Below, piece after piece: positions 978 to 34,094 of a DNA stretch of 64,000 nt (the first letter of the stretch is position 1; each line of letters begins with the position of its first letter). The translations under genes were made by a program, and so were the position numbers. The notes below the pieces were generated by a model, which saw only the letters and a program-made list of their open reading frames with translations, was not told the DNA's origin and did no database searches. The stretch is from Membranipora membranacea (taxonomy: Eukaryota; Bryozoa; Gymnolaemata; Cheilostomatida; Membraniporidae): assembly GCA_914767715.1 (NCBI GenBank), contig OU612065.1:36394001-36458000 (forward strand), in the 5' to 3' direction.

Positions 978-2245
978 ATGGTTCCTCCACCAAAATACTC
1001 TGCTAGGAGAAGAAGACTTAACACACAAGGGGCAGAAGACAATGAGGAAGCTCAGGCTCCGGGAGCGAGACATCGTGCTATTGATATGCAGAGTAAGTTT
1101 TGGTTTATTCACAATGCAAAGACCCCAATTATAAAGATTATAATTATTTTTCAGTGGATTCAACCATTTACTCTTTTATCCACAGCGCTAAGACACTTAA
1201 CAATTTTCTCTTCTGAGTAAACATTATGCCTGCTCCATATATCATAATATCACTAATTTCAATTGCACCTGGACGGAACCTGAAGAAGAATGAAATACTC
1301 CCTAATAGGACGTCACATTTCGTTGTTTTCCTCTCTTCACAAACAGGAAGACAGCCCTTGTTATTGCCAAAGCATGCAAATGTTTTATTGTAGTGTTAAG
1401 TCACACCGGGTGTCACATTGTCAAGGCTCTCAGGCTCTCCGCTATAATAACTCCTCTCATCACGTAAACTTTCTATGGATACAATATTGCACAACCGATC
1501 AACCATTTCCCTGTTTCTATATGAGATAACACTGATATTATTTGACACAAACTCTCTTCTGTTTTAATGTTGATTGAAGGAAAGAAGACATATTGTGCCA
1601 CTGTCTTTTCACCATAAGTTACAATCTTGTTCTAGAACATAATATATTAAGTGATGACCAAGCTGCTGTTGATATTTATCAAATGTGAAGATATCGGGTC
1701 AAAAAAATTAAATAGTTAAGGTAGCCCTATCAATTTTGTGAGCTAGTTTCTAACCATAACATCATATCAATAGTTTTAATATCCAGAATATTTCCTATAT
1801 GATTGGCTGGTCAGCTTAGGTGTGGTGAATATACCCCGATTTCGTTTATATTCTTTTCATATGCTATTGCTGAAACTTCTTTGGTGCTAACATCAACCAA
1901 ACTAGGTGGTACGTTATGATGATTCAGGCAAGTTATCGAAGTTAAAATTTTAGGGAAAACATGTACCATCTTATAATCAGAGAACTTCTCTATTTTTTCT
2001 ATATTGATGTTCACAGAGTATTATAGAATCTGGTATCGAGATGACAGTGAACCAGATATAGACAAGATACCTTATAGACCAGAGTTCAGGAGATTTACAC
2101 TAGAAGAGCTTATATCAGCTACACAGGATCTCACTGTGACTCATATGTCTATCAGTGGAGATATACCACCAGAACTCAGTCAGATAGCACCTCATCTAAA
2201 AGCGCTGAAGATAAGGGATATAACTTATCATGACCAATTAGAGAA
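978..2245 (+). CDS. N-terminal exons 1-2 of the LRR-Roc-COR-caspase gene
   Basis: Exon 1 (978-1092) starts at an ATG and encodes 38 residues with an early basic run (ARRRRL), then an acidic/alanine stretch. It ends in phase 1 at A|GTAAGT. Exon 2 (2017-2245) begins after TTCACAG and ends at GAGAA|GTAAG in phase 2, the phase every LRR exon needs. Exon 2 encodes a charged, Tyr/Trp-rich leader (YYRIWYRDD) and then the first LRR-like turns (ISGDIPPELSQIAPHLKAL). No signal peptide or membrane segment is visible, so the product should be intracellular. The start is the only ATG I can link by phase to exon 2; an upstream non-coding exon cannot be excluded. Confidence 0.6.
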
Positions 2246-5200
2246 GTAAGTAGATTAAAATCTATATAACAGACTGTATCGGAATCGCGCTAACCGATTG
2301 CGCCATCTCACCATCCCCAAAAAAGAATGGGTCGATTACACTAATTAGATAGCCCGCTATTCACTACTCGGAGTTGTGTTCTCTCATCCCACAGCCCGTT
2401 ACAATCCACCATTGCCACCCTATGAAACACAGCGTATGTGTTAGGGTTATTGGCCTTACATGGCCCATTGCTGGGACCCCTTGTAGTAGGTTTAGCTGTC
2501 TTTCCATGCTGTCACATGTCTTTCCATGAGTCAGTCAGTAGACAAGTACACAGTAGAGGTATACACCCGAGGGTGCTGGGGGGTGGAACAATCAACAATG
2601 AAAGCTCCCCCAGTGGGACTCGAACCCACAACTCCTGCAGCACTAATCACCTGGCAGTGAATAGCAAGGGCGCTAACCGATTGCGTCATCTCACCATTCC
2701 CAACAAAGACTGTGTACTACTGTGTACTTGTCTACTGACTGACTCATGGAAAGACATGTGACAGCATGGAAAGACATGCTGACAAGCTGGAAAGACAGCT
2801 AAACCTACTACAAGGGGTCCCAGCAATGGGCCATGTAAGGCCAATAACCCAAGCTGCATAATTGAACAACACCGACTGTTGGCAGTAAATGTCGGTGTAA
2901 TAATATAGGTTATAACGATTTTGCATTTACACTAGATTTGTCGGTCTAATAACTCTACCCTGATCTATCAATCAAGCAACTATATTGACCAATCATTACT
3001 ATTACTATCAATCATTACTATCAATCATTCTATCATACTATCATTATATCAATCATTACTATCATCAATCATTACTATCAATCATCTTGATTAATCTGGA
3101 CACCTCAGTTTTTGGTACAGTTTTGTTGACATCAGGTGGCTGCTCCATTGTTACCATCTTGTTCCCTCTGGCATTTAACCTTGTGTGTTCATTCTGTGAC
3201 ATGATCACAGAGCAACGATTCCATTAAACATTTAATCTTTCAGTGTGCGTGCTAATGCAATATCAAGACAAATATCCTAAACTCCTTGCACTGACTCCGA
3301 TCAACGCAAACATCATCTCTTTACCGTTACATTTGAGATCTAAAGAGAAGTTCAATTCATTCAAAACTTTGCTATTCAACCATTTATTATCGACTTGACC
3401 AACATCATTGATGATATTATTTCCTTTCTGTTTCTGTTTCTGTTTTTTTTTTCTGGCACTGAGTGCAAAACATTTCGAATGAGATGACTTCGGTTGCCAA
3501 TAAAAAGTATGTATATCTCATCAGAAACCAATGAGATAACAGTGTCCTTACCAAAAAAGCTTGTCAATACAGGCTAGAGTTGATGTTAAACATAATTTGA
3601 ATTTGTATGCCTGCTTTTAAAAGACCCATTGAGGCGGCTTGGGGGCAAGGGGTAACCTCTAGAGATTGAATCCACTTCATTTGGAAACATAGGTATTCAC
3701 TTATAAGTCAGGCAAGGTAGTAGAGTAATGTGTAGTTGTGTGTTGATTTCATTGCTCGAGAAGTATCTATCCCCTTGAGTTAATCCTGCCAATCCGAGGG
3801 TGCGGATGGTCTTATGCTTAAATTTACTTTCTGGTGGAAACTACCAGTTGTGTTGGTATTTGGGACGGGCGTTAGCATAAATTTATGTTTTTGTGTGCTT
3901 TTACCCCATTTTGAAACTGTAACAACTGTTACAAAAAAATTATCCTTTAATAATCAATTGCACTCAGAAATAATGGTGGTGAAATATTCACCTCAAAATA
4001 GACAAAAAATGAAGGCAGTCAACACCAAATAACTCTTAACTTAATGTATAGATATGAATTATATTGGTTTTTTTTTCAAAAAATTTCCCAAAATTGATGC
4101 TTCTTATAATTGAGATGACTTACAAATTTAGCAGTAGGAAACCAGATAATATACACATCGGATTATATTATATACTTATAAACTTATATTTGTGTATAAG
4201 AGAGCATAAACCATCTTAACCTCACTTAGTCATTCTACTTGTTGCAGTATGAGAACACTAACCAGTATAGAGGAAGTGAATTTACATCTGAATGAGAAAC
4301 TGATATCCTTACCAGAATGGATTGGAGAACTCACGAGTCTTAAGAAGCTATATGTGTCTTATTGTGGCCTCACTCACCTGCCTAACAGGTAAGTAAATAT
4401 TATGATTTCATTTTTCTCAATAATAGTTCATACATCAGTGCCTTCATCAGTGATAAAATGACTCTTCATGTGATTTTAGATATGTCAAAGGTAGTTTACA
4501 ATGTGTTTATAATATCATATCAGTTAAAACTTTGATACTGGTAGGTATAAAACCATGTAAAAACCTTTCTGTCTTAATATTTGGCATCATGTATGAGTTT
4601 CTGATAAAAGAGTAGCACTGGTACAGAATATGAGTATCATATTCTGATAAAATTGTAAGCAGTATTTTCGTTCCTATTACACATTAAAAATTCGGCATAG
4701 GAAAAGTAGGGAGCAGTTTCTCTATATTACCCTGGGTAAAGCAGTATAACCTTGTCCTGAGCCTTCTATAGATATAATGAGTGTTCTAATGCCACTATAG
4801 GTCGTAGCTAAAATATGTACATAAATACTCAAAATGCTCCACTAAACGAGATAAACCTGACAGTCCAACTCTAGAATTAAATGGTGTGGAAATAGATTGT
4901 TGTGACAATGTTAAATATTTGGGAGTACTCTTTGATAACAAATTACGTTTAAAAAATCATGTTAATAATGTTGTAACAAAATCTTTGTTAGTTTGACCAA
5001 GGAGTAGTCCTTGGTTGGACTTTTTGATTCTTCCTTCTTATTCCATGTGATTCCCTTATCATGTGGCATGTCATACTGTTTGAAAAACTACTTCTTTCTT
5101 AGTCTTAGCTCATGGGCCCCTGGGACTTACATGCCTTACTTTACCAATGTCCAGTATCAACCGCGTTTTTTTTATGGGGTGGTTGATACTGGACATTGGC

Positions 5201-8200
5201 AAAATGAGGCATGTACGTCCCAGGGGCCCATGGCTTAGCTAGTAGAGATTACCTTGAGTAAGTAGATTTTTTAAAATTCAGTATTGTGATCTATAGGCAT
5301 CGACACACAGACATCAATTTAGTCCCTTAGTCATGTTGTGATCACATGATCAGAGTACGTGTACCAGCAACCTTTTTCTCACAACTTTTACAGTTAGTGA
5401 TGGATACCAATCAGTCAATCAAAACTCCATGCTACAACCAGTTGTGGAATGAATAGATGATGAATAAATAGCATTGAAAGTAGAATGTTTATTATTTTGA
5501 TGAGGAGTGCTGATACCACCACAATATAGAAAACAAAGCCTATATTCTGGACAGACAGGTTTCCGGGAGATTATGACCTAAAAATCATCTATCAATCATC
5601 ATTCTATCTCCTTGTTACAGCATGAGAACACTAACCAGCATAGAGGAAGTGAATATATCTGATAATAAGCTGGAATCCTTACCAGACTGGATTGGAGAAC
5701 TCACGAGTCTTAAGAAGCTAGATGTGTCTGAATGTGGCCTCACTCACCTACCTAACAGGTATGTGAACACTATGATTCCATTATTCTCAATAATAGTTTT
5801 TACTTCAGTGTCTTTTTTAGTGACTCTAAATGCAATTTTAGATCACTCATCTTGTACTTTTAATACAATATTGGCTTCAATTAGCATACCTGAAACCCAG
5901 CCACAATATGATAATAGGATATGATATTAACTAATGACTTCTTGAGCGTGGAGAATTTTACAGATATACATTGACTAATGTAATATAGCTACTTAATTTT
6001 TGCGGTTTTCGTTTCTGCTGGGTAGTATTCATCAGTGATAGCAGTTGATTTTTTTTTTCAAATTTGGATATAAATTAAAAAGTCACTAACATAACAGAAG
6101 CAACATTGTTGCAGTAAATAGTCTGGTTGCAGTGTACTGGGAAAATAACAAGCTTTATTAAATACACCCAAAATTGATTTGAGAAACTAAGAGACACTTT
6201 GCGATCAAGATACACTGATTTCATAAACTGGTAATATTCACAAGTCGAGAGAACATAACAAATAACTATTAAGTGTGCGATAGTGTCGCAACATATATCT
6301 CAAACATGTTTACAATGTGTTTATGATATCATATCAGTTAAAACTTTGAGACTGGTAGGTATCAAACGATGTGAAAAAATTTATCTCTTAATATTTGGCA
6401 TCCTGTATTTTCCGATAAAAGAGTTGCACCGGTTCAGAATATAAGTATCAAAATTGAGAAAATTGTAAGCAGTATATTTATTCCTATGACTCACCAAAAA
6501 TTCGGCTTAAAAATAGTAGGAAGCAGTTTCTCTCTATTAACCTGGGTAAATCAGTGAAACGTTATCCTGATCTTTCACAATTAAAAAGAAACAAAGGAGG
6601 AGGATTTTTGTCTTTTGTTTTTTTTTATTATCTAATTTCTTTGCTGGTGAACATTTGCCTGATCAGTTGACTTCAGGACACGTACTTTTATCTTATATTT
6701 GCTTGTTACCATATTAATCAAAGAATTTAGAAAATTGTCAATTAGTTGGAAAGGGATTTTTTCTCGTATATCTTTCAGTGTGCGTGCTAATGCAATATCA
6801 AGACAAATATCCTTAACTCCTTGCACTGACTCCGATCAACGCAAAACATGATCTCTTTACCGTTACATTTGAGATCTAAAGAGAAGTTCAGTTCATTCAA
6901 AACTTTACTATTCAACCATATATTATCGACTTGACCAACATCGTTGATGATATTATTTCCTTTCTGTTTCTCTTTTTTTTCTTTTAAAATTTTTTTTTCT
7001 GGCACTGAGTGCAAAACATTTCGAATGAGATGACTTTGGTTGCCAATAAAAAGTATATATATCTCATCAGAAACCAATGAGATAACAGTGTCCTTACCAA
7101 ACAAAGCTTGTCAATACAGGTTAGAGTTGATGTAAAACATAATTTGAATTTGTATGCCTGCTTTTAAAAGACCCATTGAGGCGGCTTGGGGGCAAGGGGT
7201 AACCTCTAGAGATTGAATCCACTTCATTTGGAATCATAGGTATTCACTTATAAGTCAGGCAAGGTAGTAGAGTAATGTGTAGTTGTGTGTTCATTTCATT
7301 GCTCGAGAAATATCTATCCCCTTGAGTTAATGCTGCCAATCCAAGGGTGCGGATGGTCTTATGCTTAAATTTTCATTCTTGGGGAAACTACCAGTTGTGT
7401 TGGTCTTTAGGACAGGGCGTTAGCATAAATTTATGTTTTTGTGTGTTTTTATTCCAGTTTGAAACTGTAACAACTGTTACAAAATAATTATCCTTTAATA
7501 ATCAATTGCACTCAGGAATGATGATGATGAAATACTCACCTCAAAATAGACAAAAAATGAACGCAGTCAACATCAAATAACTCGTAACTTAATGTATTAG
7601 ATATGAATTATAATTATTTTTTACAAAATTTCCCAAAATTGATACTTCTTATAATTGAGATTACTGACAAATTTAGCAGTAGGAAACCAGATAATGTACA
7701 CATCGGATCATATATACTTATAAACTTATATTTGTGTATAAGGGAGCATAAACCATCTTAACCTCACTAAGTTATTCTCCTTGTTGCAGTATCAGAACAC
7801 TAACCAGTATAGAGGGAGTGAGCATATCCTGGAATAGGAATCTGAAATCCTTACCAGACTGGATTGGAGAACTCAAGAGTCTTAAGATGCTATCTGCGTC
7901 CGAATGTGGCCTCACTCACCTGCCTGACAGGTAAGTAAATATTATGATTTCATTTTTCTCAATAATAATTCTTACATCAGTGCCTTCATCAGTGATAAAA
8001 TGACGCTTCATGTGGTTTAAGATCTGTCAAAGGTAGTTTACAATGTGTTTATAGTATCATATCAGTTAAAAATTTGATGCTGGTAGGTAGAAAACTATGT
8101 AAAAACCTTTCTGTCTTAATATTTGGCATCTTAACCTCACTTAGTTATTCTACTTGTTGCAGTATGAGAACACTAACCAGTATAGAGGAAGTGAATATAT

Positions 8201-11200
8201 CTGAAAATTGGACTCTGAAATCCTTACCTGACTGGATTGGAGAACTCACGAATCTTAAGAACCTATATGTGTCTGGATGTGGCCTCACTCACCTGCCTGA
8301 CAGGTAAGTAAATATTATGATTTCATTTTTCTCAATAATAATTCTTACATCAGTGCCTTCATCAGTGATAAAATGACTCTTCATGTGATTTTAGATCTGT
8401 CAAAGGAAGTTAACAATATGTTTATAATATCATTTAAAACTTTGATACTGGTAGGTATCAAACTATGTAAAAACCTTTCTGTCTTAATAATTGGCATCAT
8501 GTATGAGTTTCCGATAAAAGAGTAGCACTGGTTCAGAATATGAGTATCATATTCTGATAAAATTGTAAGCGGTATTTTCATTCCTATTACACATTAAAAC
8601 TCGGCATAAGAAAAGTAGGAAGCAGTTTCTCTATATTACCCTGGGTAAAGCAGTATAACCTTGTCCTGAGCCTTCTATAGATATAATGACTGTTCTAATG
8701 CCACTATAGGTCGCAGCTAAAATATATACATAAATACTCCACTTAACAAGATAAACCTGACAGTCCAACTCTAGAATTAAATGGTGTGGAAATAGATTGT
8801 TGTGACAATGTTAAATATTTGGGAGTACTCTTTGATAACAAATTACGTTTCAAAAATCATGTCAATATTGTTGTAACAAAATCTTTGTTAGTTTGACCAA
8901 GGAGTTTTCCTTGTTTTGACTTTTTGATTTTTCCTTCTTATTTTATGGGATTCCCTTATCATTTGGCATGTCATACTGTTTGAAAAACTACTTCTTTCTT
9001 AGTCTTAGCTCATGGGCACCTGGGACTTACATGCCTTACTTTACCAATGTCCAGTATCAACCGTGTGTTTTTTGGGGTGGTTGATACTGGACATTGGCAA
9101 AATAAGGCATGTAAGTCCCAGGGGCCCATGGCTTAGCTAGTAGAGACTACCTGGAGTAAGTAGATTTTTTTAACTTCAGTATTGTGATCTACTGGCATCG
9201 ACACACATACATCAATTTAGTCTATTAGTCATGTTGTGGTCACATGATCTGTAGACCATAGAATAAAATCGGACAACTCTTATTCTATTCCAAATTCACA
9301 ACTATTGCAATTTATTTTTGACTTGTGCTCTTTTTCCAAATGGATTTACCCTGGCTGTGCGCCCTCCCCATCAACCCGCCCACCCCAACAGCCTGCCAAG
9401 GCTACCTTTTTTGGATCAGAAAGATTATGGGAGAGTAATTTCTAACTCTTATTGGGCTGGATATTTACATTTTGTCAATAATTAAATGTTTTAAATCTCC
9501 AGCATGTTCATAACGAGGGATCAGTTCTCAACTACAGTAGTGTATAAAACAGTATTTTAGTTCAGTAAAACCTCATTTGATGTAAATCACATAATAATCC
9601 GTGGGCTGAACAATTTTGTTTTGGTTATGATTTCATGATTCCCAATATTAGTTCTTACATCAATGTCTTCATTAGTGATCAAATCACTCTAAATGTGATT
9701 TAAGATCTGTCAAAGGTAGTTTACAATATCTTTAAAATAGCATTTAAAACTTTGATACTGGTAGGTATAACACTATGTAAAAACCTTTCTGTCTTAATAT
9801 TTGGCATCCTGTATGAGTTTCCGATAAAAGAGTAGCTCTGGTTCAGAATATGAGTATCATATTCTGATAAAATTGTAAGCAGTATTTTCATTCCTATTAC
9901 ACATTAAAAATTCAGCATAGGAAAAGTAGGAAGCAGTTTCTCTATATTACTCTGGGTAAAGCAGTATAACCTTGTCCTGAGCCTTCTATAGATATAATGA
10001 GTGTTCTAATGCCATTATAGGTCGTAGCTAAAATACTCAAAATGCTCCACTAAACGAGATAAACCTGACAGCCCAACTCTAGAATTAAATGGTGTGGAAA
10101 TAGATTGTTGTGACAATGTTAAATATTTTGGAGGTCTCTTTGATAACAAATTACGTTTCAAAAATCATGTCAATAATGTTGTAACAAAATCTTTGTTAGT
10201 TTGACCAAGGAGTAGTCCTTGTTTGACTTTTTGATTCTTCCTTCTTATTCCATGTGATTCCCTTATCATTTGGCACTTCATACTGTTTGAAAAACTACAT
10301 CTTTATTAGTCTTAGCTCATGGGCACCTGGGACCAGTGGCGTGTATTACCACTCACGGCCCATGGATTTCCGTGAGTGGCTGAATAGCTCAGTGAGTAGA
10401 GCGTCCGCCTAATAATCACTGTTAAAAAGATGGTTGGGGGTTCGAATCCCATCGTGGTCAGTTTTTTTCAAATTGGTGCTTTATAACTGGAGCATTTTTA
10501 CCGTAATCTTCTACTGCTATTGAGTTGTTTTCTGAAAGCACCCAACAGCTCAGTGAGCTATTGAAATACCTCTCTGCTTGCACTATTTTGCTACCGATAT
10601 GCAAAAATTTCCGTGGTGGGAGGGCGCTTAAGCGCCCCTCCCACACCCTCCCCGCCACGCCTACGGCGTGTGGATCGGGCTGTGCCCGATCATTATGCTC
10701 ATCTCTAAAAAGTCAGTGAGTTAAATTTTATAGAATATACGCCCCTGCCTGGGACTTACATGCCTTACTTTACCAATGTCCAGTATCAACCGCGTGTTTT
10801 TTGGGGTGGTTGATACTGGACATTGGCAAAATAAGGCATGTAAGTCCCAGGGGCCCATGGCTTAGCTAGTAGAGACTACCTGGAGTTAGTAGATTTTTTT
10901 AAATTCAGTATTGTGATCTACAGGCATCGACACACAGACATCAATTTAATCTATTAGTCATTTTGTGATCACATGATCTGTAGACCATAGAATAAAATCG
11001 GACAACTCTTATTCTATTCCGAATTCACAACTATTGCAATTTATTTTTGAGTTGTCCTCTTTTTCCAAATGGATGATGATGAGTCGGAAGCAACTTGTAT
11101 GCCCACTTTTAAAAGACCCAGTGAGGCGGCTTTGGGGGTGCGGGGTGACCTCTAGAGATTGAATCCACTTAATTTTAGAACATAGTCACTTATAAGTCAG

Positions 11201-14200
11201 GCAAGGCAGTAGAGTAATGTGTAGTTGTGTGTTGATTTAATTGCTCGAGAAGTATCTATCCCCCTGAGTTAATCCTGCCAATCCGAGGGTGCGGATGGTC
11301 TTATGCTTAAATTTTCTTTCTGGTGGAAACTACCAGTTGTGTTGGTCTTTGGGACGGGGCATTAGCATAAATTTATGTTTTTGTATGGTTTTACCTCAGT
11401 TTGAAACTGTAACAAATTTTAGAAAATTTCCCAAAATTTATATTTCTTATAATTAGGATTACTCACAAATTTAGCAGGAGGAAACCAAATAATAGACACG
11501 TCAGATTATATATACTTATAAACTTATATTTGTGTATAAGAGAGCATAAAACATCTTAACCTCACCTAGTTATTCTACTTGTTGCAGTATGTATCAACCC
11601 GCTTGTTTTTTGGGGTGGTTGATACTGGACATTGGCAAAATAAGGCATGTAATTCCCAGGGGCCCATGGCTTAGCTAGTAGAGACTACCTTGAGTTAGTA
11701 GATTTTTTAAAATTCAGTATTGTGATCTACAGGCATCGACACACAGACATCAATTTAGTCTATTAGTCATGTTGTGATCACATGATCTGTAGACCATAGA
11801 ATAAAATCGGACAACTCTTATTCTATTCCGAATTCACAACTATTACAATTTATTTTTTAGTTGTCCTCTTTTTCCTCATGGATTTACCCTGGCTGTCCCC
11901 CCCTCCCCATCCGACCCCCGACAGCCTGCCAAGGCTTCCCTTTGTGGAACAGAAAGATTATGGGAGAGTAATTTCTAACTCTTATTGGACTGGATTATTA
12001 CATTTTAACAATAATTAAATGTTTTAAATCTCCAGTATGTTCGTAAAGAGGGATCAGTTCTCAACTACAGTAGTATATAAAACAGTAGTTTTTTGAGGCG
12101 GTCACAATGGTGATGATGTACATTACACAAAGTTGCACCATAGGCAGCAAATTGCCAAAAACGCTGCAGAAAATGGGCAAAATTTTGTTTTGGTTATAAC
12201 TAATTCTTATTGGACAGCATTACAACTCTGATAAATTTGGAGATTATGATATTAGAGAATCACAAGAGACATTACCTGATGGTATCGGGGGGGGGGGGAA
12301 TCAAGAGTCTCAGAGTGTTATCTATAGTTGAGTGTCTTATCAGACACCTACCTGAGAGGTAATTATATACTGAGTCACTCGGGACTATGATGACTGTATG
12401 TGGATATTCTTAGTTCAGATCAGCATACTTTTCTACACACAAATCCCTGTCTTTGTAATCTGATAGAGTTTATGTTGAGGCTGGGCAACATCGAAAGATA
12501 TTTTTACCTCAATCCAGGTTAATAGAATACCTATTGCTGTTCAAATACTGACTAGTCAAAATAAGTTGGAAGTATATTTAATAAAAATATTGATTGCACT
12601 GCTTGTTAGATTTTGGCAAAATTTTAAATCTAAGCTTATCTCGAAGATTTAAAGAATCAAAACTTGGTAATTTTTCAATCCCAGACGTCGAACATGCCTC
12701 TCCCGCACCCTCCCATGTGCCAAGCACTTGCTGCCCTAAATAACTGCCAAGTTGTCTAGAACTCCAACAAAATCTAGTATTTATCAACAAAATTAGTTGG
12801 GAGCCCTGGGCATGAATGGTACATTTCACATCCATGACACAATAAGCATATAAAACCAAGGAGTCCTTTCTCCTCTTCCCTATTACTTGCATTTCATTGT
12901 CGAGCTTCCCTTCACTCAATCCTGCTTTGCGAATTCATTGTGTCACTACTGGGATATTAACCAGTAACCTGCTAACCATTAACTATTATTCCATATGGGC
13001 ATTCATATTAATAGTACCATTTTTTAACCCTGTTTTTGCATGCAAGGCAACTTCATTATTTTTAGCAGAGTAGTGTACCAGCAACTTTTTTCTCTCAACT
13101 TTTGCAGTTAGTGATAGATACCAATCAGTCAATCAAAACTCCACGCTGCAACCAGCTGTGTAATGAATAGATGATGAATAAATAGCATTGAAAATAGAAT
13201 ATTAATTAGTTTGATTAGAAGTGCTGATACTACCACAATATAGAAAACATAGCCTTAATTCTGGACAGACAGGTTTCTGGGAGATTATGAAGTAAAAACA
13301 TCTATCAATCATCATTCTATCTCCTTGTTACAGTATGAGCACACTAACCAGCATAGAGGAAGTGAATATATCTGGTAATGAGCTGGAATCCTTACCAGAC
13401 TGGATTGGAGAACTCACGAGTCTTAAGAAGCTAGATGTGTCTGAATGTGGCCTCACTCACCTACCTAACAGGTATGTGAACACTATGATTCCATCATTCT
13501 CAATTATAGTTTATACTTCAGTGTCTTTATGCAATTTTCGATCACTCATGCAATTTTCGATCACTCATCTTGTAATTTTAATACAATATTGGCTTCAATT
13601 AGCATACCTGAAACCCAGCAACAATATGATAATAGGATATGATAATAACTAATTCACTCACTCACCTGCCTGATAGGTATGTAAACATCATGATTTCATT
13701 AATATCAATAATACTTCTTACATCAATGTCTTCATTAGTGATCAAGTGTCTACAAATACGATTTTAGATCTATCAAAGGTAGTTTACAGTTGTTCAAAAA
13801 GGCTATGTCTTTATAATGGCATATCATTTAAAACTTTGATACTGGTAGGTATAAAACTATGTAAAAATCTTTCTGTTTTAATATCTGGTATCCTGTATGA
13901 GTTTCTGATCAAAGGGTTGCACTTGTCCGGAATATAAGTAACAAAATTCATAAAAATTGTAAGCAGTATTTTCAATCCTATTACACACCAAAAATTTGGC
14001 ATAACAAAGCTTGAAGCCGGTTCTGTCTATTAACCTGGTTAAAACAGTAAAACCTTGTTTTTTGTTTTATTTTTTTCTTTAATTCTTTTTTATTATTTAA
14101 TTTCTTTGCCGTGAAACTCTTTGTAATGACAACAGTGTCCTGTGCGTCACAAATAAACCATCAAAGTTCCTTCGAAAGAAAAATTGCTTAGTTAAGGGTA

Positions 14201-17200: not shown

Positions 17201-20200
17201 GATCACTACTTCATGCAGCTCACAGACTTAATTCTGCATTAGGAACCTTCTAGTGTTTACCCTAATATTCATACCAGAACTGCAAGGGTTCATTGAAAAT
17301 TAATAATATTTGATTCCTGAATATCACCCCTAATGCATGCACCTGTGCATTGTAATTTCATTTGTGCGTCATCCATTATTGTATGACTGCGCCTATTACA
17401 GAATTAGTTGAGAGTATCCTTATTGTAGAAACTCTTCACCTCACTTAGTTATTCTCCTTGTTACAGCATGAGATCACTAACCAGTATAACGGACGTGACT
17501 ATATATGGGAATGAGGAACTGATATCCTTACCAGACTGGATTGGAGAACTCACAAATCTTGAGAGGCTAGATGTGTCTGATTGTGGCCTCACTCACCTGC
17601 CTGACAGGTAAGTAAATGTTATGATTTCATTTTTCTGGGTAAATCAGTGAAACCTTATCCTGATCTTTCACAATAAAAAAGAAACAAAGGAGGAGGATTT
17701 TTGTCTTTTGTTTGTTTTTTTATAATTTAATTTCTTTGCTGGTGATCATTTGCCTGATCATTTGTATGCCTGCTTTTAAAAGACCCAGTGAGGCGGCTTG
17801 TGGGCAAGGGGTAACCTCTAGAGATTGAATCCACTTCATTTGGAAACATAGGTATTCACTTATAAGTCAGGCAAGGTAGTAGAGTAATGTGTAGTTGTGT
17901 GTTGACTTCATTGCTCGAGAAGCATCTATCCCCTTGAGTTCATCCTGCCAATCCGAGGGTGCGGATGGTCTTATGCTTAAATTTTCTTTCTGGTGGTCTT
18001 TCTGAGTCTTAAGAAGCTAAATGTGTCTAAATGTGGCCTCACTCACCTGCCTTACAGGTATGTAACTATTATGATTTCATCATTTCCAATAATACTTCTC
18101 ACATCAATTTCCTCTAAATGCCATTTTAGATACAAGTGTCTTTCATACAATATTGGTAAAAATGATGCTTAGAATGCATGAAAACAAATGAGAGAAAAAA
18201 CAAATGTTTCAATCAAATGACCCTAAAGGCTTGATGTTTGTTATTGTGACTTCAATAGCCTACCTGAAAACCAGCCACATTAAAATAATATGTCATAATA
18301 TTAACATATGATCATTCTTATGACTGCTTGGTCGTAAACAATTTACAGATGTATATTGATGAATATATGGCTACCTTATGTTTGTTTTCATTTTATGCTG
18401 GGTAGCCATCATCAGTGGCAGCAATTGGTTTTTGTTTCATGTGGGTATAAATTACGTCTGAAAATTCTTAATCATGATTGGAATTAATTCTCGTTCAATT
18501 TTAGTCAGATATATGTCTATGTCTGTTAGTCTATGCTATACTGCCTTTAGAAGTCTCTTTGGCGATTAGAGAAAAATATCACAGGCTACATAAAATATAC
18601 CCAATAGTGATTCGGGTACTTGGCATCACTTTATGATCAAGATACACTGATATCACGAATTGGTAATATTCATTAGTTGAGAGGACATAACAAATAACAT
18701 GCAAATGAATAAATCCTGGTGAAATTGCCCTCTGTGCCACCCTACTCCTAATTGTTCAACTGGTTCTACTGATAATAATTGTGTAAACACTGTGTTAAGT
18801 CTGAAATACTGGCGATTTATAGAGGATTCAACAACAAAAATGATGAAAAATATCAAATATTGGAATCATGAGCAGTTAACAATTCAAGATGACAAATGTT
18901 CTGGTGAAACAAAAATATGATACATCTGTTTGAGATGTCCTGTTACCTAATACCTAATACAGTGTGAAATGACTGCTTGTGAAAATCTGATATTTGTTGA
19001 CCGTAGTGCCTTGTAAGTATATCATTGACAAACCTCTGCAGAAGTTTGCCTCTGAAATGGTCGGTAATAGTCCAAACTATGTCATTTTGGGAACATTAGC
19101 AAGAAATCAAACTGTTCTACCAAGAGGTCGGTAGTTGATCATAAGCTGCACCAACCAAAAAGCTGATACTTTGTGGCTCCATCGACCACATTTCTGTCCA
19201 TTTGTTTGGTATATTATTCCTCCTCTCTAATACAAGATAATCAAGACTGGTATCTGAACTTATTTCTCTTTTTCTAGCATGTCAAAACTGGTAAATTTGG
19301 AGGAACTTGAGCTCAGATCTAACACCTCTCTCCTCTCAATCTCTTCTGGTGTTTGTCAACTCAGTAAACTGACGTATATATTCTGTGATAAATGTAAAGC
19401 ACTGACGAGTCCTCCATATGCTGTCTGTACACAGGGGCTTGCTGCAATGAGAAAATACTTTACAGATCTGGAAGAAGATAGGGAGATGAACATTAAGTTT
19501 GTTCCAATCACTGTATTTGGTCAAACCATGGCCGGAAAAACCAGTCTTGTTCGGTCGATGCAGAAAAATGTACGTGTTTTGACCTTGCGATGTGACAATA
19601 GCAAGCTAGATGAGGCTACCAAAGTGTTCAAGGTGTGCGAGGCAGAGGTCGATGAAAAATACAAATTAGTATTCCATGACTTTGGTGGGCAGGCGATTTA
19701 TCAGTTTGCCTACCAATTGTCAGATAGATCCCAGTACATTCCCATGCTCGTCATAGACATTGCTGAATTTGACCGTCTGATAACTGAACAGGGAGAAGAA
19801 GTTGCCTGTGAAACAGTTTGTTTTCAATGGCTCTCCCACCTCTACCTTGCAAGCCCCAAGGCAGGCCCGCCATTTGTAGTGTTGACCCACTGTGATGTTA
19901 TCGATAGCCAGATCTGCGAAACTAGGCTGAGATTGCTGATAGAAGTAACAGAACGCTTACGATCAATATTATTAAAGGAGGAGAAAGCCATGGTACCAGA
20001 GAAAAGCCCAATTTTGATCATGAAAAGTTTCCAGGATACATCCCAGCCCCTTCTCACTCAGCACACACCACGCTTCTTTTACAAAGATTCTACCACTGAA
20101 GTAATTTGTGGTCTGAAAACCTTCCTCGTGTCTATTGGATTATCGCTGCTCACAGAAATTCCAGGTAGCTGGTATGTTCTGATGGAACTGTGTGCGTAAT

Positions 20201-23200
20201 TCTTCAATACCTGAATGAAATAGGAAGAATCAAGTGGTACAGGAATAGAGAAAACCTGTCCAATATAGTGTTCCATCGAATCGAGCTGCTCACACACCTG
20301 ATCGAGTTGCTCTACGACCATTCCAGAAAGGATACCTGGGATCAGCGGATAAAGAGTTTCCAAGCTTTTGAGGATGTGAGTCAGGATGTGAGAATAAACA
20401 AAAGGAAATACAACGACATGATTAGATCCTTCCTAGACACTGGGGTCATAAGGGATATTCTGCTACATCATCTAATCAGCCAAGAGTCTGAGGTTAGACC
20501 TGAGGTGGCAATAGAAGTATTGAAGGTGTTCCATCTGATCTGCGGTCCAGTACAGAAGGGTAGTGAGAGTCACTACGTCATCCCATACTTCAGTCCGAGA
20601 GTAATCACAGTAGAGGAATCTGGGAAATACATCCCTTTGAAAGTTGACATTTGTTTCAATGGATTGGCACTTCCAAGCTATGCATATGATCTGCTTACAG
20701 CAATATACGTCAACCTCCATATCACTCCTTCCAATCACATTGATGTCGGCTGCAATGGTGCTTGTGTTAGTGAAGACAACGGCACAATCAAGTATTTATT
20801 TCACGACCATATTGAGAAAACCGTCACACTTATCATACTATCACCATCAGAAGAAATAGCCACATCCTGGGACAGCCTGTTGAACACTTTGCAACATCTG
20901 ACATCACAACTAGAAAAAGTATGGAAGGGAGCTCACTGGGAGAAGGTGTTTTACTGCTCACACTGCCTGCTTGCTAAACAAGACAGCCTACACACTCAGG
21001 TGGATCCAGAATGGCTGACCCTTAAAAGGCCACCCTATACTGGCAAAGAAGTTTCTGTCTGCAGTGAACCCCCTACAGCCCAAGGCCGATTATCAGTTCC
21101 ACGTCCGTTCATCTATCCATGTTAGTACCGCTAGAATTATGTTTATAAACTCATGTGCAGTTGGCGTTTAAGGCATGATTTGAATGTTGCTGGTTGCATT
21201 TTTATGTCTCTTTCTGTATCTGTATTCTCTCTGCAAATCTACATAAATGTTATAATTAATAGGCGGCAGCATTACTGAAAGAGGAATTAAAACTTTGGAC
21301 GAGTACTTGTCAAATATTGAAACAGGACAGCATCAGGCAGGTAGGTAATTACAGAGTTCATGTTCGGTGATCGAGGAAAAAAAATCAAATTTAAAATTCT
21401 AATATATACCTCTGTCAGAACAATAACCATGGAATTGTCAATGGTTGAACATGTCCACCTTTCCGGACTTTTATTGCTGTCACACAGGACAAGCAAAGTT
21501 AGGTATTGGATTGGGGCATCGGTTGATCTACAGTCTGGAAATGCTTTTATTCCCAGCCTTAGCCTGAGTACTCAACAAGTGCGTTTGAGTTGCTGTTGCC
21601 TCTTTTCAATCTTAATCTAGTTTCTGTTGTTGCTCGCTTGTGACAATTCAACAACAATAATAATTTCACAATCTGAAAACCCCGTTTTGTCATTTTTTTT
21701 AACACATATCATGTTTTTTTAGCGCAGATGCATTATTTTCTCAATCTTTTTCCTTTTGTCACATGTTATAGTATTCATATTTTTTGTCTTTACAGCCTCA
21801 GCAACTTCACAGTCCGGTAGTTCACACGATCAACTTGCTGTACAGGTATCACAAATTGATGATATCGTGAATGAAGTGAACTCTGATCAGGTTCTGATCA
21901 GTCATGAGCCAGTTACAGCTGATCCATCGAGCACATATCTGAAGAATCAGGTAATTGAGTTGTCCAGCTTTTGCTATCAAAAAAGGCATGCTGACCTGCG
22001 CGATTCATTTTGCTGTCTTAGAATTGCCCTCTCACATTATCATCATTTCTGTTAGTTCAGTTAAGTCCATACTTCCCATGCGTCCTCAACAATCTTATTT
22101 AAATTGAAAGCTTTGCCAAGACAGACTAAAATGCGAAAATGAACACAGTGCAATATAAAATGCGCACTACATTTTACAACTTTGTTGATGTTATGTCTGC
22201 ATGTCTTCATTGATCGGTTTTAGAGTGTGTATAGTGTGTCTAAAACTCGTGGAAGAGCACTGATAATATCAAACAGAGACAGGAGAACAGGCTCAGATCA
22301 TGACAACGACAATATTAAACGAATGCTAGGCAAGTTCGGATTCATTACTGTTGGAGGACATGACAGCTACACTGCGCAGGTAATGAATCTTCCACACAGC
22401 ACTGCAAAATCCCGATACATTCAGTACATGACAATAAATGTGTCGATTGAAACCATTACAGTTGGGAGAAATTAATTTGAACACTGAAAACTACTTAATT
22501 TAAACTTTGCTGATTTAAATGATGCATGAGTGAAACCCTGGCCAATGATCATTAATTTTGATGAATCACCCAAATATTTCCACTGACTTCATGAAATGTG
22601 TACAATGAAAAATATTACCACGGTTATTTACACTGTTGTGGCACCTAGCCTAACCTGTCTGGAATCAATATATCCATATATCAAACTTCATAGTATCATT
22701 TAACTTGGAGAGATAGATGGATGTAATGATCCGGTGGGGATTAAGTGGAATTTACTCCTTGTTTTATGCTCTTTGCTTAGGAAATAGTTGCCGCTATTCA
22801 TTCAGAGACACAACTAGTAGACCCACTGACAAATGAATCAGTACACAAACAGCTACACTCATTTGTGCTAGTCATCGCGAGTCACGGACATGAGGGATCT
22901 GTATCTGGTTCTGATCGTAGACATCTCAAAATTACAGAGGTTATAGACCTACTCTCCCCTAAAAACTTCCCTGCTATGAAAGGGAAGCCAAAGCTGGTGA
23001 TTATACAGGCTTGTGCTGGCAGTAAGTCTGTAAATCTGTATGAGAATATAAAGACAGCTATCTAAGCTTTCAAAATACCTGCAAGTCTTCATTAAACTCT
23101 AGTAGAAAACTCATTTTTATATGCTCAATAGAAATATGATTGATTATCAAATACTATGAGCAACGCTGAGAAGTTGGCTATCTAGTCTAATTAGTATACA

Positions 23201-24590
23201 TACAACCTGTTAACATCCTACACTATTGTTAAGTGAACCACAGTAAGCTCTGAGCTATTAAAGTTTTGAAGAAAAAGTTAACTTTACCATCTGGACACAT
23301 TAAATCAAGTTCTTTGGATTTTCATCTGCAACCGTTCTGAATTGTTTGATAGATCCTTATTGGATTGGGTCACTAAAAGCCAAGATAACATGACTTTGCA
23401 GGTAAGAGAGAGATGTTTCTCATGGACCCACCCCCTCCAAGACCTGCACAAATTCAGAATCGACCGGATGTCGGTAATATCAATCAGTCTTCTGCCCACA
23501 CTTCTGATGATGACAGTGATATCAATGAGGAAAATGATGAAGCAAGCAATCAAGACAGTGACGAAGACAGCGGTGAAGACAGCAGTGAAGACAGCGGTGA
23601 AGACAGCGGTGAAGACAGCAGTGAAGACAGCGGTGAAAATGGAACTGAGTCACATACCCTCGACCCTAGTGATATCTCTACATCAGACTTCATGATCATG
23701 CAGTCCAGCTTTGATTGTAAGTAGAGAACAATTTCCAACCTTGGTAACCTAAAGAAAATGAATACAGCGATTGGTCAGCTGTAGCATTACTGATTTAATA
23801 CACCAAAAAGAAAGCTCTAAGTTGGTCCTTTTCCACACAAAAACAAACAAGTTTCCCGATCCATGCATTGCATGCATGTTTGGTTCTAGAAACAAAGTCA
23901 ATTTGCTAATCTAAAAATTGATTCAGCACTTCAGCCATTGAGACGCAGGAACAGTGAAGGTCGAGTTAAATACAGGGGCAGTCACAGCATGATTGTTTTA
24001 TGACCAAATTTACTTTGACGAAATCAATTTAGATTGTTTTAGTTTTCATATTATGATGTTCTTTTCATACAGTGTTCAAGTCACCCCGGAGACATACAGT
24101 TGGCTCGACGTTCATTCGATGCTTGGTATCAGTGTTCTACAGATATGCTGATAGATATCATCTCAGGGAGCTGGCAAAAATGGTAAGTGATTGTACGATT
24201 AACATGTCGATTACCTTTCCTTGGTGAAAGTGCATAACATCAATTTTAGCATGAGTTGATGATAACTATATTCATTCCAAATCATTGGAAGATTCATACT
24301 TAGCTCTAGTCACATCCCTTGTTTCTCAGGTAGGGGAGGCTGTAGCTAAAGCTGGAACACAGAGAACAGAATATCTGCTGAGGACTCGTAGATACAATGG
24401 AAGTTTTGAGAATGCTTTTCGTGCCTCGATGCCGCAGACCAGGTGTACATTCATTGAAAAGGAGTTCTATCTACAGCCTGGTATCAATATGAGAACAGAG
24501 GATGGGCCAGAGGATCATCCAGAATCACTGAGAAACCCTGTGCTCCCGGATAACACGTATACTAAAATAGAGCAGAAACCTAGTGAGTGA
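978..24590 (+). CDS. LRR-Roc-COR-caspase multidomain protein (16-17 exons)
   Basis: Predicted cytosolic sensor-protease with no signal peptide. Exons: 978-1092, 2017-2245, 4248-4388, 5621-5758, 7790-7930, 8163-8303, 13334-13471, 17467-17607, 19278-21120 (frame break inside), 21263-21340, 21796-21950, 22224-22379, 22781-23021, 23402-23716, 24073-24182, 24330-24590. All junctions are GT-AG and phases agree. With a 59-nt intron at 20165-20223 the sum is 4284 nt, 1427 codons plus TGA. Domain order: basic N-terminus, LRRs, Roc GTPase (GQTMAGKTS, DFGGQ, THCD), COR, a short linker, caspase p20 (SHG, QACAG), an acidic linker, caspase p10. Roc-COR always occurs as a tandem in Roco proteins; caspases are Cys-His proteases that cut after Asp. 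Fusion of the two is my inference from exon phase and spacing. The alternative is two adjacent genes split near 21.1-21.8 kb. No transcript evidence is available to me. Confidence 0.72.
2280..2330 (-). repeat. Fragment of a tRNA-derived SINE head
   Basis: On the minus strand the sequence reads like a tRNA D-arm (GGCGCAATCGGTTAGCGC), the same sequence as in the loop of the foldback element next to it at 2590-2700. Too short to be a tRNA gene. Confidence 0.5.
2444..2851. mobile_element. Foldback element with a tRNA-like loop
   Basis: Two long inverted arms, about 2444-2556 and 2718-2851, are nearly perfect reverse complements. The right arm holds one extra copy of a short internal repeat ending GTCTTTCC. 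The loop on the minus strand contains a tRNA-like block: D-arm GACGCAATCGGTTAGCGC and T-arm/B box GGGTTCGAGTCCCAC. I read it as a non-autonomous foldback or SINE-SINE inverted pair in intron 2, not as a functional tRNA. Confidence 0.6.
2987..3092. repeat. ATCATTACT-type simple repeat
   Basis: Short-period low-complexity tract made of repeated ATCATTACT/ATCA blocks, inside intron 2. Confidence 0.7.
4248..4388 (+). CDS. LRR exon A (phase 2-2, 47 codons)
   Basis: Acceptor TTGCAG, donor AACAG|GTAAGT. The exon encodes two leucine-rich repeats of about 23 residues, with SLPEWIGELTSLKKL followed by YVSYCGLTHLPN. The repeat resembles the LPxxIGxLxxLxxLxVxxCxL type found in Roco proteins and Ras-group LRR proteins. 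It differs from its sisters by Glu instead of Asp in the PxW motif and by Tyr at both exposed positions of the LxVSxC strand. Confidence 0.75.
5107..5236. mobile_element. Foldback MITE copy 1 (GGGCCCCTGGGACTTACATGCC arms)
   Basis: Arms of about 55 bp (CTCATGGGCCCCTGGGACTT ... and its complement ending GGGGCCCATGGCT) flank a short T-rich loop. The central part, AATGTCCAGTATCAACC, is mirrored by GGTTGATACTGGACATT. Other copies lie at 9007-9134, 10315-10867 (interrupted by a hAT MITE) and 11588-11672 (half). Confidence 0.7.
5621..5758 (+). CDS. LRR exon B (phase 2-2, 46 codons)
   Basis: Acceptor TTACAG, donor AACAG|GTATGT. Encodes ISDNKLESLPDWIGEL and LKKLDVSECGLTHLPN. It is one codon shorter than the 141-bp exons. 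The exon and about 300 bp of flanking intron on each side are close to identical to 13334-13471 and its flanks, so one is a recent copy of the other. Confidence 0.75.
7790..7930 (+). CDS. LRR exon C (phase 2-2, 47 codons)
   Basis: Acceptor TTGCAG, donor GACAG|GTAAGT. Encodes ISWNRNLKSLPDWIGELKSL and a divergent second strand (MLSASECGL). The first codon after the junction is ATC where sister exons have ATG; inside a spliced exon this has no consequence. Its introns are duplicates of those around exon A. Confidence 0.72.
8163..8303 (+). CDS. LRR exon D (phase 2-2, 47 codons)
   Basis: Only 232 bp downstream of exon C, the shortest LRR intron in the gene. The intron is truncated relative to its copies: sequence jumps from the TTTGGCATC repeat directly to the CTTAACCTCAC segment that precedes an acceptor. 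Encodes ISENWTLKSLPDWIGEL and LKNLYVSGCGLTHLPD. Confidence 0.73.
9640..12100. repeat. Duplicated intron block 3, LRR exon lost
   Basis: Parts of the same block are reshuffled here without an intact LRR exon. A segment beginning GTAGACCATAGAATAAAATC occurs near 9245, 10978 and 11785. At 11580 an acceptor (TTGCAGTATG) is present, but an LRR exon has been replaced after 6 bp by half a foldback MITE. Confidence 0.6.
10334..10747. mobile_element. hAT-type MITE with 8-bp target-site duplication and a tRNA-like Pol III promoter
   Basis: 414 bp bounded by terminal inverted repeats CAGTGGCGTGTATTA and, on the other strand, CAGGGGCGTATATTC (12 of 15 match). It is flanked on both sides by CCTGGGAC (10326-10333 and 10748-10755). 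An 8-bp duplication with CAG ends is typical of hAT transposons. It sits inside a foldback MITE and so is younger. Positions 10374-10460 read like a tRNA (A box TAGCTCAGTGAG, B box GGTTCGAATCC). A hairpin GGGAGGGCGCTTAAGCGCCC follows near 10617. No transposase is present. Confidence 0.8.
12217..12358 (+). pseudogene. Dead LRR exon
   Basis: LRR remnants can be read only by changing frame: TLINLEIMILEN, then TLPDGI, a run of twelve G, then SLRVLSIVECLIRHLPE before GAGAG|GTAATT. Frame is lost once before the Pro-Asp motif and again at the G run. It is older and more divergent than the six intact exons. Confidence 0.65.
13334..13471 (+). CDS. LRR exon E (phase 2-2, 46 codons), duplicate of exon B
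   Basis: Acceptor TTACAG, donor AACAG|GTATGT. Differs from exon B by only a few residues, clustered in the turn (ISGNELES against ISDNKLES) and at the start (MST against MRT). The second repeat is identical. Confidence 0.73.
13655..13677 (+). pseudogene. 3' stub of an LRR exon
   Basis: Only the end of the cassette (CTCACTCACCTGCCTGATAG followed by GTATGT) survives, with its downstream intron copy. Confidence 0.5.
14136..15398. repeat. Dispersed GTCC-cGTGCGTCACA motif cluster, nature unknown
   Basis: A 14-16 bp motif close to TGTCCCGTGCGTCACA occurs at 14136-14151, 14315-14329 (inverted), 14686-14701, 14879-14894, 15050-15065, 15240-15255 and, shortened, 15388-15398. A half copy lies at 15042-15050. 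Sequence between the copies shows no obvious homology. The region interrupts the duplicated-intron pattern and has no recognised gene. Confidence 0.55.
15780..16445 (-). mobile_element. Decayed LINE reverse transcriptase (CR1/L2-like)
   Basis: Minus-strand translation across several frames and stops gives FVYRKDSSTTDA, then an FITIVPNIILDNL block, FLEDRQQHVPVGDSKSDV, and GYPQGCVLSPVLFLYT. These are the ordered blocks of a non-LTR reverse transcriptase (the last matches GVPQGSVLSPLLF). The YADD core that should follow is degraded. It lies in the intron before LRR exon F. Confidence 0.75.
16920..18060. repeat. Duplicated intron block 4 around LRR exon F
   Basis: Partial repeats of the 3.2-5.4 kb block appear before (16920-17075) and after (17630-18000) exon F. 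At 18003-18057 a stub of another LRR exon (SLKKLNVSKCGLTHLP, donor ACAG|GTATGT) is fused directly to intron repeat sequence with no acceptor, so it is not a usable exon. Confidence 0.6.
17467..17607 (+). CDS. LRR exon F (phase 2-2, 47 codons)
   Basis: Acceptor TTACAG, donor GACAG|GTAAGT. Encodes IYGNEELISLPDWIGEL and LERLDVSDCGLTHLPD, the most divergent intact copy in its first repeat (RSLTSITDVT). It is the last intact LRR cassette before the Roc exon. Confidence 0.72.
19278..21120 (+). CDS. Roc GTPase and COR domain exon, with a reading-frame break at about 20165-20223
   Basis: Opens in phase 2 after TTTCTAG with a final LRR (LVNLEELELRSN). From 19500 it encodes a Ras-like Roc domain: P-loop GQTMAGKTS (GxxxxGKT/S) near 19519, switch II DFGGQ near 19678 and the guanine-specificity motif THCD near 19885. 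COR begins with EIPGSW. At 20199 the frame meets TAA, and COR homology resumes one frame over (YLNEIGRIKWYRN, then YVIPYFSPR). Either a frameshift and a deletion of COR residues have occurred, or a 59-nt intron (20165-20223, GTAGCT...GAAATAG) is removed. That intron restores the frame but discards COR-like residues. Donor CCAT|GTTAGT at 21121. Confidence 0.75.
21263..21950 (+). CDS. Linker exons between COR and caspase
   Basis: Exon 21263-21340 (78 bp) encodes GSITERGIKTLDEYLSNIET. It ends GCA G|GTAGGT and joins 21796-21950 in phase, giving a Ser/Gln/Asp-rich stretch (ATSQSGSSHDQLAVQVSQID). No death domain, DED or CARD is apparent, so the protease seems attached by a flexible linker. Phase is the main support for continuity between the Roco and caspase halves: 21340 leaves one base and 21796 needs two. 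Confidence 0.6.
22224..23021 (+). CDS. Caspase p20 exons (catalytic His and Cys)
   Basis: Exon 22224-22379 (phase 0-0) encodes YSVSKTRGRALIISN and NIKRMLGKFGF, the p20 start with the RG that helps form the Asp pocket. Exon 22781-23021 encodes the catalytic His in IASHGHEG (His codon 22883-22885), and the catalytic Cys in KPKLVIIQACAG (Cys codon 23012-23014). The usual pentapeptide is QAC(R/Q/G)G, so the Arg is replaced by Ala. Both catalytic residues and the KPK lead-in are intact, which argues for an active peptidase rather than a pseudo-caspase. The exon ends A|GTAAGT. Confidence 0.85.
23402..23716 (+). CDS. Caspase inter-subunit linker exon with acidic minisatellite, start of p10
   Basis: Phase 1-1 exon of 105 codons. 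Starts SKREMFLMDPPPPRPAQIQN, then a very acidic Ser/Asp/Glu run made by a 12-bp tandem repeat coding for DSGE/DSSE (about 23560-23637), then HTLDPSDISTSDFMIMQSSF at the p10 boundary. Caspases are matured by cuts after Asp between p20 and p10, so an Asp-rich linker offers many candidate sites. In other caspases the linker is much shorter. The start of p10 (FMIMQSSFD) corresponds to the DFLxxYAT strand. Confidence 0.75.
24073..24590 (+). CDS. Caspase p10 exons and C-terminus
   Basis: Exon 24073-24182 encodes SPRRHTVGSTFIRCL and FYRYADRYHLRELAKM, matching the p10 pattern SWRxxxxGSxFIxxL with the Trp replaced by Pro and the Arg kept. Exon 24330-24590 encodes VGEAVAKAGTQRTEYL and MPQTRCTFIEKEFYLQPGIN, the usual p10 end, followed by about 34 acidic residues and TGA. 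It enters in phase 0 after TTTCTCAG. Confidence 0.8.
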
Positions 24591-33246: not shown

Positions 33247-33301
33247 GATGAGCCCTTACATACTTATACTCTCTAGAGAAGTATATGTATGTAAGGGCCC
33301 A
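33247..33301. repeat. Palindrome at the end of the SMARCA4 duplicate
   Basis: Arms of about 24 bp (GATGAGCCCTTACATACTTA and its near complement ending GGGCCCATC) around CTCTAGAG. One arm is genuine SMARCA4 exon sequence and the other is its inverted copy, so this is a rearrangement breakpoint. Confidence 0.8.
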
Positions 33302-33362
33302 TCTTCATCTGACTCTATAACTACCTTCTGTTTACGGGGCCTGCCCCTCTTCTTTTTCTCTC
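33271..33362 (-). pseudogene. SMARCA4 last-exon copy, 3'-truncated
   Basis: Copy of the first half of exon 59170-59363 (EKKKRGRGRPRK region and the acidic stretch). It breaks off at CTCTAGAG, where the sequence turns back on itself (palindrome 33247-33301). The stop codon and the Ala/Ser-rich tail are missing. Confidence 0.8.
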
Positions 33363-33890
33363 CTTTAAATCATAGAAACATAAAACTTCAAGTCAAGCTG
33401 ATTTCTGATTTGAGTTTTTGTTCCAGTTCCATACACAATGACTTTAATAGGATTATCACATTTTCTTTTGGTTTTAGTAGAGAGGTTACGAAATTTTGTA
33501 TTTGTCTTTTCTCAATACGTGAACTTGTTGTCATGTATACGTTTTCTTGATTGGTCAGTTGTGAGGTTTAATGTGATCTGGAGTTACACTCTCACGACAG
33601 TGGAAAATACTACTTGGTATAAATAAAAAATAATACACCCTGACAGGTAGAAGTTTTCATATCATATTAAATGTAATATTTTAACAGGTGCCATGAAGTT
33701 GTCATATCATGTATGCTTTCACATTCTCGGTCAGATTTCGAAACCTCACTAAAGTTTGGCAATTATCTATTGTTAACTAAGAACTTTGGGTGTTGTCCTG
33801 ACAATATATAATTGAAAACTTCAATAGAAATATTCATAAGATACATTAGAAGATGGCGCGGAAATAGGAATATCCTATCACACCGCCTAC

Positions 33891-34094
33891 CTCTATCATC
33901 TAGGTCTCGTTCGGGTTTTCTCTTCTTAGTGGTAGAGTTCCCGCCTGATGGAGTTTTAGCTGGCGTTGGAACCGGGGTGATCTTTCTTCCTCCTTTTCAT
34001 CTCTGGAGTTTTCTAGAGTCTTGAGCTTACCCTTCTGCAGTAACTCACGAGCGTTAGACCAGATAGACTGCTGACGTATACTGTCCTCATAGAT
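33891..34094 (-). pseudogene. SMARCA4 penultimate-exon copy with 1-bp deletion
   Basis: 204 bp against 205 bp in the functional exon (59956-60160). The loss falls in the acidic DEEEDEK stretch and shifts the frame. Splice dinucleotides remain. Confidence 0.8.

Follow-up and report, generated by a model that had tools for sequence, protein, structure and literature searches.

A predicted leucine-rich repeat, Roc-COR and caspase chain in the bryozoan Membranipora membranacea, a candidate receptor-protease

The present analysis concerns a gene predicted at positions 978-24590 of a 64,000-nucleotide stretch of the genome of the bryozoan Membranipora membranacea (assembly GCA_914767715.1, contig OU612065.1, positions 36,394,001 to 36,458,000 of the forward strand), which is referred to here as the window. 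This gene probably belongs, with a probability of roughly 0.6, to a family of receptor-proteases, so far bryozoan, in which a sensor of leucine-rich repeats (LRR), a Roc-COR switch and a caspase are joined in a single chain. The features that can be read from the sequence are the architecture itself, the conserved residues of both the GTPase and the protease, the recurrence of the arrangement in the bryozoan Watersipora, and signs of diversification in the LRR.

The predicted chain and its relatives

The gene model was obtained by reading all the frames over 978-24590 and joining the exons through GT-AG sites and phase, which resulted in 17 exons on the + strand, with consistent phases, and a predicted protein of 1427 residues in the order LRR-Roc-COR-linker-caspase. 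These exons comprise a start exon, an LRR cap, six LRR exons, each of which starts and ends in phase 2, one exon each for Roc and COR, two for the linker, and five for the caspase. The LRR exons, Roc, COR, p20, and p10 that the first-pass annotation had placed on one strand were found again at the same places, and the junctions that it had proposed between COR and caspase (21120-21263-21340-21796-21950-22224) are exactly those given by the GT-AG sites and the phase. The single predicted chain that it had described was modelled in the window and encountered again in Watersipora.

The first exon (978..1092), with the start ATG and a basic N-terminal segment, is the weakest part of the model, given that tblastn with the proteins of the relatives found no match there. 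It is followed by the LRR N-terminal cap (2017..2245; IWYR...VTHMSI), where residues 46-121 of the Watersipora protein P0018 align to 2025-2243 with 29% identity (tblastn, E 1.3e-5). LRR exons 2, 4, 5, and 6 (5621..5758, 8163..8303, 13334..13471, and 17467..17607) are indicated both by the splice model and by tblastn of the relatives, while LRR exon 1 (4248..4388, two repeats) and LRR exon 3 (7790..7930) come from the splice model, without a tblastn match at 1e-4. The last LRR and the Roc GTPase domain occupy 19278..20164, in a region (19264-20193) that has 58% identity to the relative P0001 by tblastn. The segment at 20165..20223 is either a putative 59-bp intron or the site of a frameshift with approximately 70 bp missing, and it is followed by the remaining COR-A and COR-B (20224..21120, donor T|GTTAGT), assigned through homology to the relatives. 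Linker exon A (21263..21340), with an LTxxEIxxLxEYL-like sequence, is matched by a linker profile, and linker exon B (21796..21950), which ends in YLKNQ, was placed by phase and alignment only.

The caspase begins with the first part of p20 (22224..22379; RGRALIISN, RRTGSDHD) and its catalytic part (22781..23021; SHG, QACAG), which has tblastn support, followed by the acidic intersubunit linker and the start of p10 (23402..23716), the p10 exon (24073..24182; SPRRHTVGSTFIRCL, splice model and alignment), and the end of p10 with a C-terminal tail (24330..24590, stop TGA at 24588-24590), which falls inside the whole-domain Pfam match. Within the intersubunit linker, a 12-bp tandem repeat at 23538-23637 encodes EDSGEDSS and is likely to be a site of variable length.

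When the spliced protein was compared with Pfam (E <= 0.01), LRR families were found down to 1.4e-32, and Peptidase_C14 at 5.6e-28 with the entire profile (1-233) covered, while the p10 exon by itself reached E 0.095. The Roc match on the spliced protein (E 0.0016, 19.1 bits) lies below the Pfam cut-off of 27 bits, as do both of the Roc scores in the window (22.2 and 19.1). Pfam makes no COR call in the window protein, in which COR-B was identified by homology to the relatives and COR-A is damaged. Among the 11 Pfam families matched by the window protein there is neither a NACHT/NB-ARC ATPase nor a CARD, DED, or death domain, which agrees with the lack of a death-fold adaptor domain supposed in the first-pass annotation, and no NACHT, NB-ARC, CARD, DED, or death domain is found in the relatives among the 25 of 32 Pfam families listed.

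The residues expected of both enzymes are present in the window and mostly conserved in the relatives. The Roc motifs G1, G3, and G4 were all found (the P-loop GQTMAGKTS, DFGGQ, and THCD), and the P-loop lysine occurs in 31 of 32 aligned rows, with a gap in the other. The caspase domain contains the histidine and cysteine of the catalytic dyad (in SHG and QACAG) and both S1-pocket arginines, the first of which is retained in 13/13 rows, while the second is arginine in eight, lysine in two, and a gap in three of these rows. This domain is predicted to be a true caspase with conserved protease residues, and its best caspase match by sequence is CED-3 (2e-11).

The AlphaFold model of the Watersipora protein P0019 provides fold matches to 6hlu (LRR-Roc-COR), 3dpu, LRRK1, and LRRK2. 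CED-3 also gives the best structural Z for P0019 in VIA-align, in a list that is filled by the caspase domain and leaves the rest of the chain untouched by the comparison. Residues 726-749 of this protein, the counterpart of linker exon A, form a helix in the structure model. When the PDB was searched by sequence, Roc reached only CtRoco and a chain of 4wnr, and LRRK1 was reached weakly (0.0013), through the LRR part.

The search with the window protein from Roc to its end recovered 23 proteins, 22 of them at E <= 1.1e-66. These are 17 non-Watersipora Roc-COR reading frames (40-55% identity), five proteins of Watersipora subatra, and a weak match from Owenia (1.3e-4). Of the five Watersipora proteins, four align over 98-99% of the query and the fifth over 80%. 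The closest named relatives of the window gene are from the bryozoan Watersipora. A second search with P0018, in which scoring was limited to the 7991 candidates with the most words in common, recovered 14 proteins, one of them from amphioxus and the other 13 from Watersipora. Over both searches, a caspase domain lies behind the Roc-COR sequence in 12 of the 14 Watersipora proteins, on 7 contigs that all differ in length. In the set obtained with the first query, Pfam recognizes Roc in 20/23 members (E <= 0.01), COR-A in 12/23, and COR-B in 2/23. A midpoint-rooted tree of 32 Roc-COR rows has the 14 Watersipora rows on one side of a branch and the window nested among the non-Watersipora reading frames, with the caspase-bearing P0022 falling, together with P0032, outside both main groups.

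A pattern scan of the genome-contig collection gave 10 stretches, none of which was confirmed by tblastn as a relative of the chain, and a scan of viral contigs with the Roc-COR alignment gave 82, with none confirmed. No second Roco or caspase copy was found in the window by tblastn of 33 proteins (E 1e-4), in which no 500-bp bin outside 2000-23000 was matched. The word caspase is absent from the available part of the Watersipora genome note, which describes an Ensembl annotation derived mainly from transcript alignment; the Watersipora proteins used here carry NCBI names. In the part available of the Flustra genome paper, neither "caspase" nor "leucine-rich" occurs.

Divergence of the LRR exons and alternative readings

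The LRR region has grown through the copying of cassettes of exon plus intron, as seen in the copies of 3235-4588 at 6770-8130 and of 4212-5351 at 8127-9249, with 92-93% identity. The exon diverges more than its aligned flanks in four of five pairs, and the proportion of non-synonymous differences (pN) exceeds that of synonymous ones (pS) in four of five. When non-synonymous is compared with non-coding change, the five pairs give p 1.8e-6, 2.4e-4, 0.034, 0.17 (in the opposite direction), and 0.16. Among the six LRR exons, the amino-acid differences concentrate at the exposed positions of two beta-strands (mean 0.573 vs 0.166, permutation p 0.00024), and this mask ranks first of 46 rotations (next 0.55, 0.547, and 0.543), which is suggestive, as far as the sequence goes, of fast evolution at these positions. 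Further fragments of LRR exons at 13640-13680 and 17990-18057 (SLTHLPDR, SLKKLNVSKCGLTHLPYR) are perhaps dead or alternative cassettes.

Several points weigh against the receptor-protease reading. The five LRR pairs share copies and are not independent, gapped columns were dropped from them, and they include one pair that is opposite in direction and two that are individually non-significant. The mask of exposed positions was chosen after the sequences had been viewed. The p10 has GSTF instead of the usual GSWF, and P0031 and P0032 are without a caspase domain, while the caspase-bearing P0022 is a long branch whose nearest row is precisely P0032. Finally, the Watersipora proteins are automated predictions, several of them incomplete: P0030 ends short of the catalytic part, most of p10 is missing from P0027 and P0021, and P0028 starts within Roc.

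The most probable alternative accepts the family as real and considers the window copy to be defective, as a pseudogene or a damaged allele, or else to be misassembled, and the chances of this are about even. At 20.2 kb, Roc and COR are in different frames, a feature absent from the first-pass annotation, and approximately 70 bp of COR-A, as counted against P0005, are gone. In the relatives, the missing stretch spans IPxSW to ILQYLxxIG, and it is kept in all 31 of those aligned, while in the window SWYVLMEL is followed by VILQYLNEIG in a different frame, the length lost not being a multiple of three. If this lesion is real and unspliced, the chain would terminate at 20199, which is one more point to be counted against the family reading. 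On the other hand, splicing out 20165-20223 (59 bp with GT-AG ends) would restore the frame, at the cost of more COR-A. Such an intron would be less than half as long as the next shortest, the remaining 15 in the model all having at least 142 bp, and its shortness counts in favour of a damaged copy. Against damage, the reading frame stays open in the remaining exons, which have GT-AG sites, and the catalytic residues are conserved. Whether the copy is broken, misassembled, or yields a shortened COR-A is about evenly balanced, and it could be a damaged member of the family or a variant one.

Considerably less probable is that the protein is a signalling Roco similar to MFHAS1 or LRRK, with no function as a receptor for defence or death, in which the caspase would act on itself or on a few substrates in signalling or development. 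Some of the relatives do bear the NCBI name MFHAS1-like, but the lineage-specific expansion of the family and the changes at exposed positions of the LRR both fit recognition better.

The best evidence for a continuous chain between COR and caspase comes from the relatives. Aligned together with theirs, the window linker keeps the same order along its length, with PC-x-LTxxEIxxLxEYL after COR and Y...VYxMS...RGRALI before p20. A profile of 12 Watersipora linkers, cut from an alignment that also included the window, was compared with 2919 six-frame pieces of the window, and its best match was to 21256-21345 of the + strand (12.2 bits, E 0.028; next 4.7 bits), the place expected for linker exon A. 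The window linker alone scored 14.8 bits, while the best of 500 shuffles reached 10.9. Applied to the complete window protein, this profile reached only 8.2 bits for the best stretch and approximately zero over the entire sequence. Its coverage of exon A is also far better than that of exon B, which was not picked out alone; both of these points detract from the case for one chain.

The residues at the end of the COR exon also bear on this question. In the 17 non-Watersipora frames, the residue after the PC that closes this exon is E in nine, K in four, and R in one; in one frame nothing follows, and two have no such end. A donor T|GTGAG or T|GTAAG would be read through as C-E or C-K, which fits 13 of these 17 frames, while elsewhere in the same proteins 47 of 244 cysteines are followed by E or K. 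Because these residues fit a shared splice donor, the donor of the COR exon reads as common to the family, judging from the protein letters, and the COR exon would thus be internal in the relatives as well.

That a Roco gene ends at the in-frame TAG (21123-21125) directly after the COR donor, intronic if spliced, and that a neighbouring caspase gene has been merged with it on paper is very improbable: the TATAAA at 21144 and 22154 and the ATTAAA at 21286 and 22314 (+) do leave room for separate transcripts, against the one-chain reading, while AATAAA is absent from the + strand between 20393 and 22433, and this candidate was held unlikely given the linker profile, the lack of any methionine in residues 985 to 1100, between the end of COR (985) and residue 1101 inside p20, the exon-end residues, and the 12 Watersipora models in which the caspase lies behind the Roc-COR sequence. 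There is strong indirect evidence, then, that the window protein would be a single chain.

The surroundings of the gene

On the - strand, 59173-63550 contains the exons for the C-terminal part of a SMARCA2/4 (brahma) gene, whose earlier part would lie beyond the window edge. One of its exons, compared with the protein collection, matched Watersipora at 80% and two insects at 68% and 54% (three matches of 23 candidates). Over 59-64 kb, nine Watersipora pieces match SMARCA2/4, with higher scores in bits than Agrilus in 7/7 and than Scirpophaga in 6/6 of the shared pieces. These scores, from one neighbouring gene and two insect comparators, fit the bryozoan source, and a sponge source was set aside on this basis, in a comparison whose candidates included no sponge or other lophotrochozoan. 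The bromodomain exons of SMARCA occur once more, as a partial copy, at 33271-34447, also on the - strand and on the other side of a tandem array, in a duplicated segment (33417-34677 vs 59481-60752) with 90.6% identity. The array itself (35900-57900) contains one peptide-coding motif 17 times, with a spacing of approximately 1.35 kb, and no reading frame of at least 100 residues is listed between 35.7 and 57.7 kb. The segments 4808-4996, 10028-10204, and 58178-58528 (-) are presumably pieces of retroelements, to judge from their reverse transcriptase-like motifs. In Watersipora, the contigs of P0022 and P0032, the divergent members of the family, and of P0035 (SMARCA) are all 61084640 long, and the two types of gene are possibly on one chromosome there, as they are in the window.

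Known systems and the proposed function

The caspase is a new effector on a known Roco chassis, and the general idea has precedents. The Roco proteins (MFHAS1, LRRK1/2, DAPK1, and CtRoco) have in common with the window family an LRR followed by Roc-COR with the P-loop, DxGG(Q/H), and THxD, except that DAPK1 is without LRR, and they end in a kinase, a death domain, or nothing, whereas the window family ends in a caspase. From the caspases CED-3 and caspase-3/7/9, with which it shares p20/p10, the His/Cys dyad, and the S1 arginines, the window caspase differs in having Roc-COR in the place of a CARD/DED prodomain and an 89-residue acidic linker with the 12-bp repeats. The NLR inflammasomes, in which NLRC4 or NLRP proteins work with caspase-1, also combine an LRR sensor with an NTPase switch and have caspase activity as their output, although they use a NACHT ATPase and recruitment through CARD/PYD, in contrast with the Roc-COR and direct fusion of the window family.

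MFHAS1 is an LRR-Roc-COR protein without a C-terminal catalytic domain, according to the available part of PMC4104024, while in the window model a caspase follows COR. The LRRs-caspase and TNFR-caspase hybrids of amphioxus, like the window family, join receptor repeats and a caspase in one chain, and the part of PMC2575513 consulted proposes them as shortcuts between recognition and apoptosis and reports cDNAs for the TNFR-caspase type. Neither "Roc" nor "COR" occurs as a whole word in the main text available of that paper, a comparison by description in which a Roc-COR may have been overlooked. The LRR-Roc-COR-TIR proteins of anemones (cnidarian NG1; PMC5094078) and the TLR-ROCO of molluscs (Aplysia; PMC9334734) are also described, in the excerpts available, as lineage-specific unions of Roc-COR with an immune effector domain, which is TIR in both cases and a protease in the window family.

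The first-pass annotation knew of no characterization of this architecture, and no Roc-COR-caspase protein was found in the open-licence PMC literature, within the portions of text covered and with subscription papers and bioRxiv outside the scope. The idea itself has precedents in PMC2575513 and PMC5094078, as far as their available text goes. In the same partial texts, no such member is named by the Roco reviews PMC4104024 and PMC6337361, and no such protein appears in the surveys of conflict systems and death domains PMC8195603 and PMC7159879.

Taken together, the sequence features would make the window protein a likely adaptor-free receptor-protease of immunity or allorecognition, for which a cytosolic location, activation induced by dimers, and a role in cell death, defence, or allorecognition may be envisaged. 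Initiator caspases are activated by proximity, and from this, together with the behaviour of CtRoco and LRRK, every step of the following mechanism was derived. A ligand at the LRR would alter the nucleotide cycle of Roc, COR-B would pair two chains, and the paired caspase domains would turn active and cleave in trans, without an adaptor. If the protein behaves like CtRoco, its dimer would form in the nucleotide-free or GDP state, and the trigger would then be the hydrolysis of GTP and not its binding. This is contrary to the GTP-driven COR dimerization suggested in the first-pass annotation, which is opposed by the finding that GTP-bound CtRoco occurs mainly as a monomer and the nucleotide-free protein as a dimer, as stated in the part of PMC6337361 available.

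In its widest form, which is tentative and has well under an even chance of being correct, the receptor-protease reading would have bryozoans running an expanded repertoire of single-chain receptor-proteases, in which the LRR surface is renewed through the duplication of exon cassettes and diversifying selection, with a function in defence against microbes or in the fusion and rejection of colonies, and in which the hydrolysis of GTP on Roc-COR pairs the caspases, in effect a Roco-based inflammasome that needs no adaptor.

The Roco GTPases matter through LRRK2, and how the state of Roc-COR controls a C-terminal effector is still debated, a question for which a caspase output would provide a clean and readable effector. 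If the family kills cells, it would represent an inflammasome-like logic without STAND ATPases or death-fold adaptors. To our knowledge, the immunity of bryozoans has been little studied, and in that case the family would also give candidates for bryozoan allorecognition.
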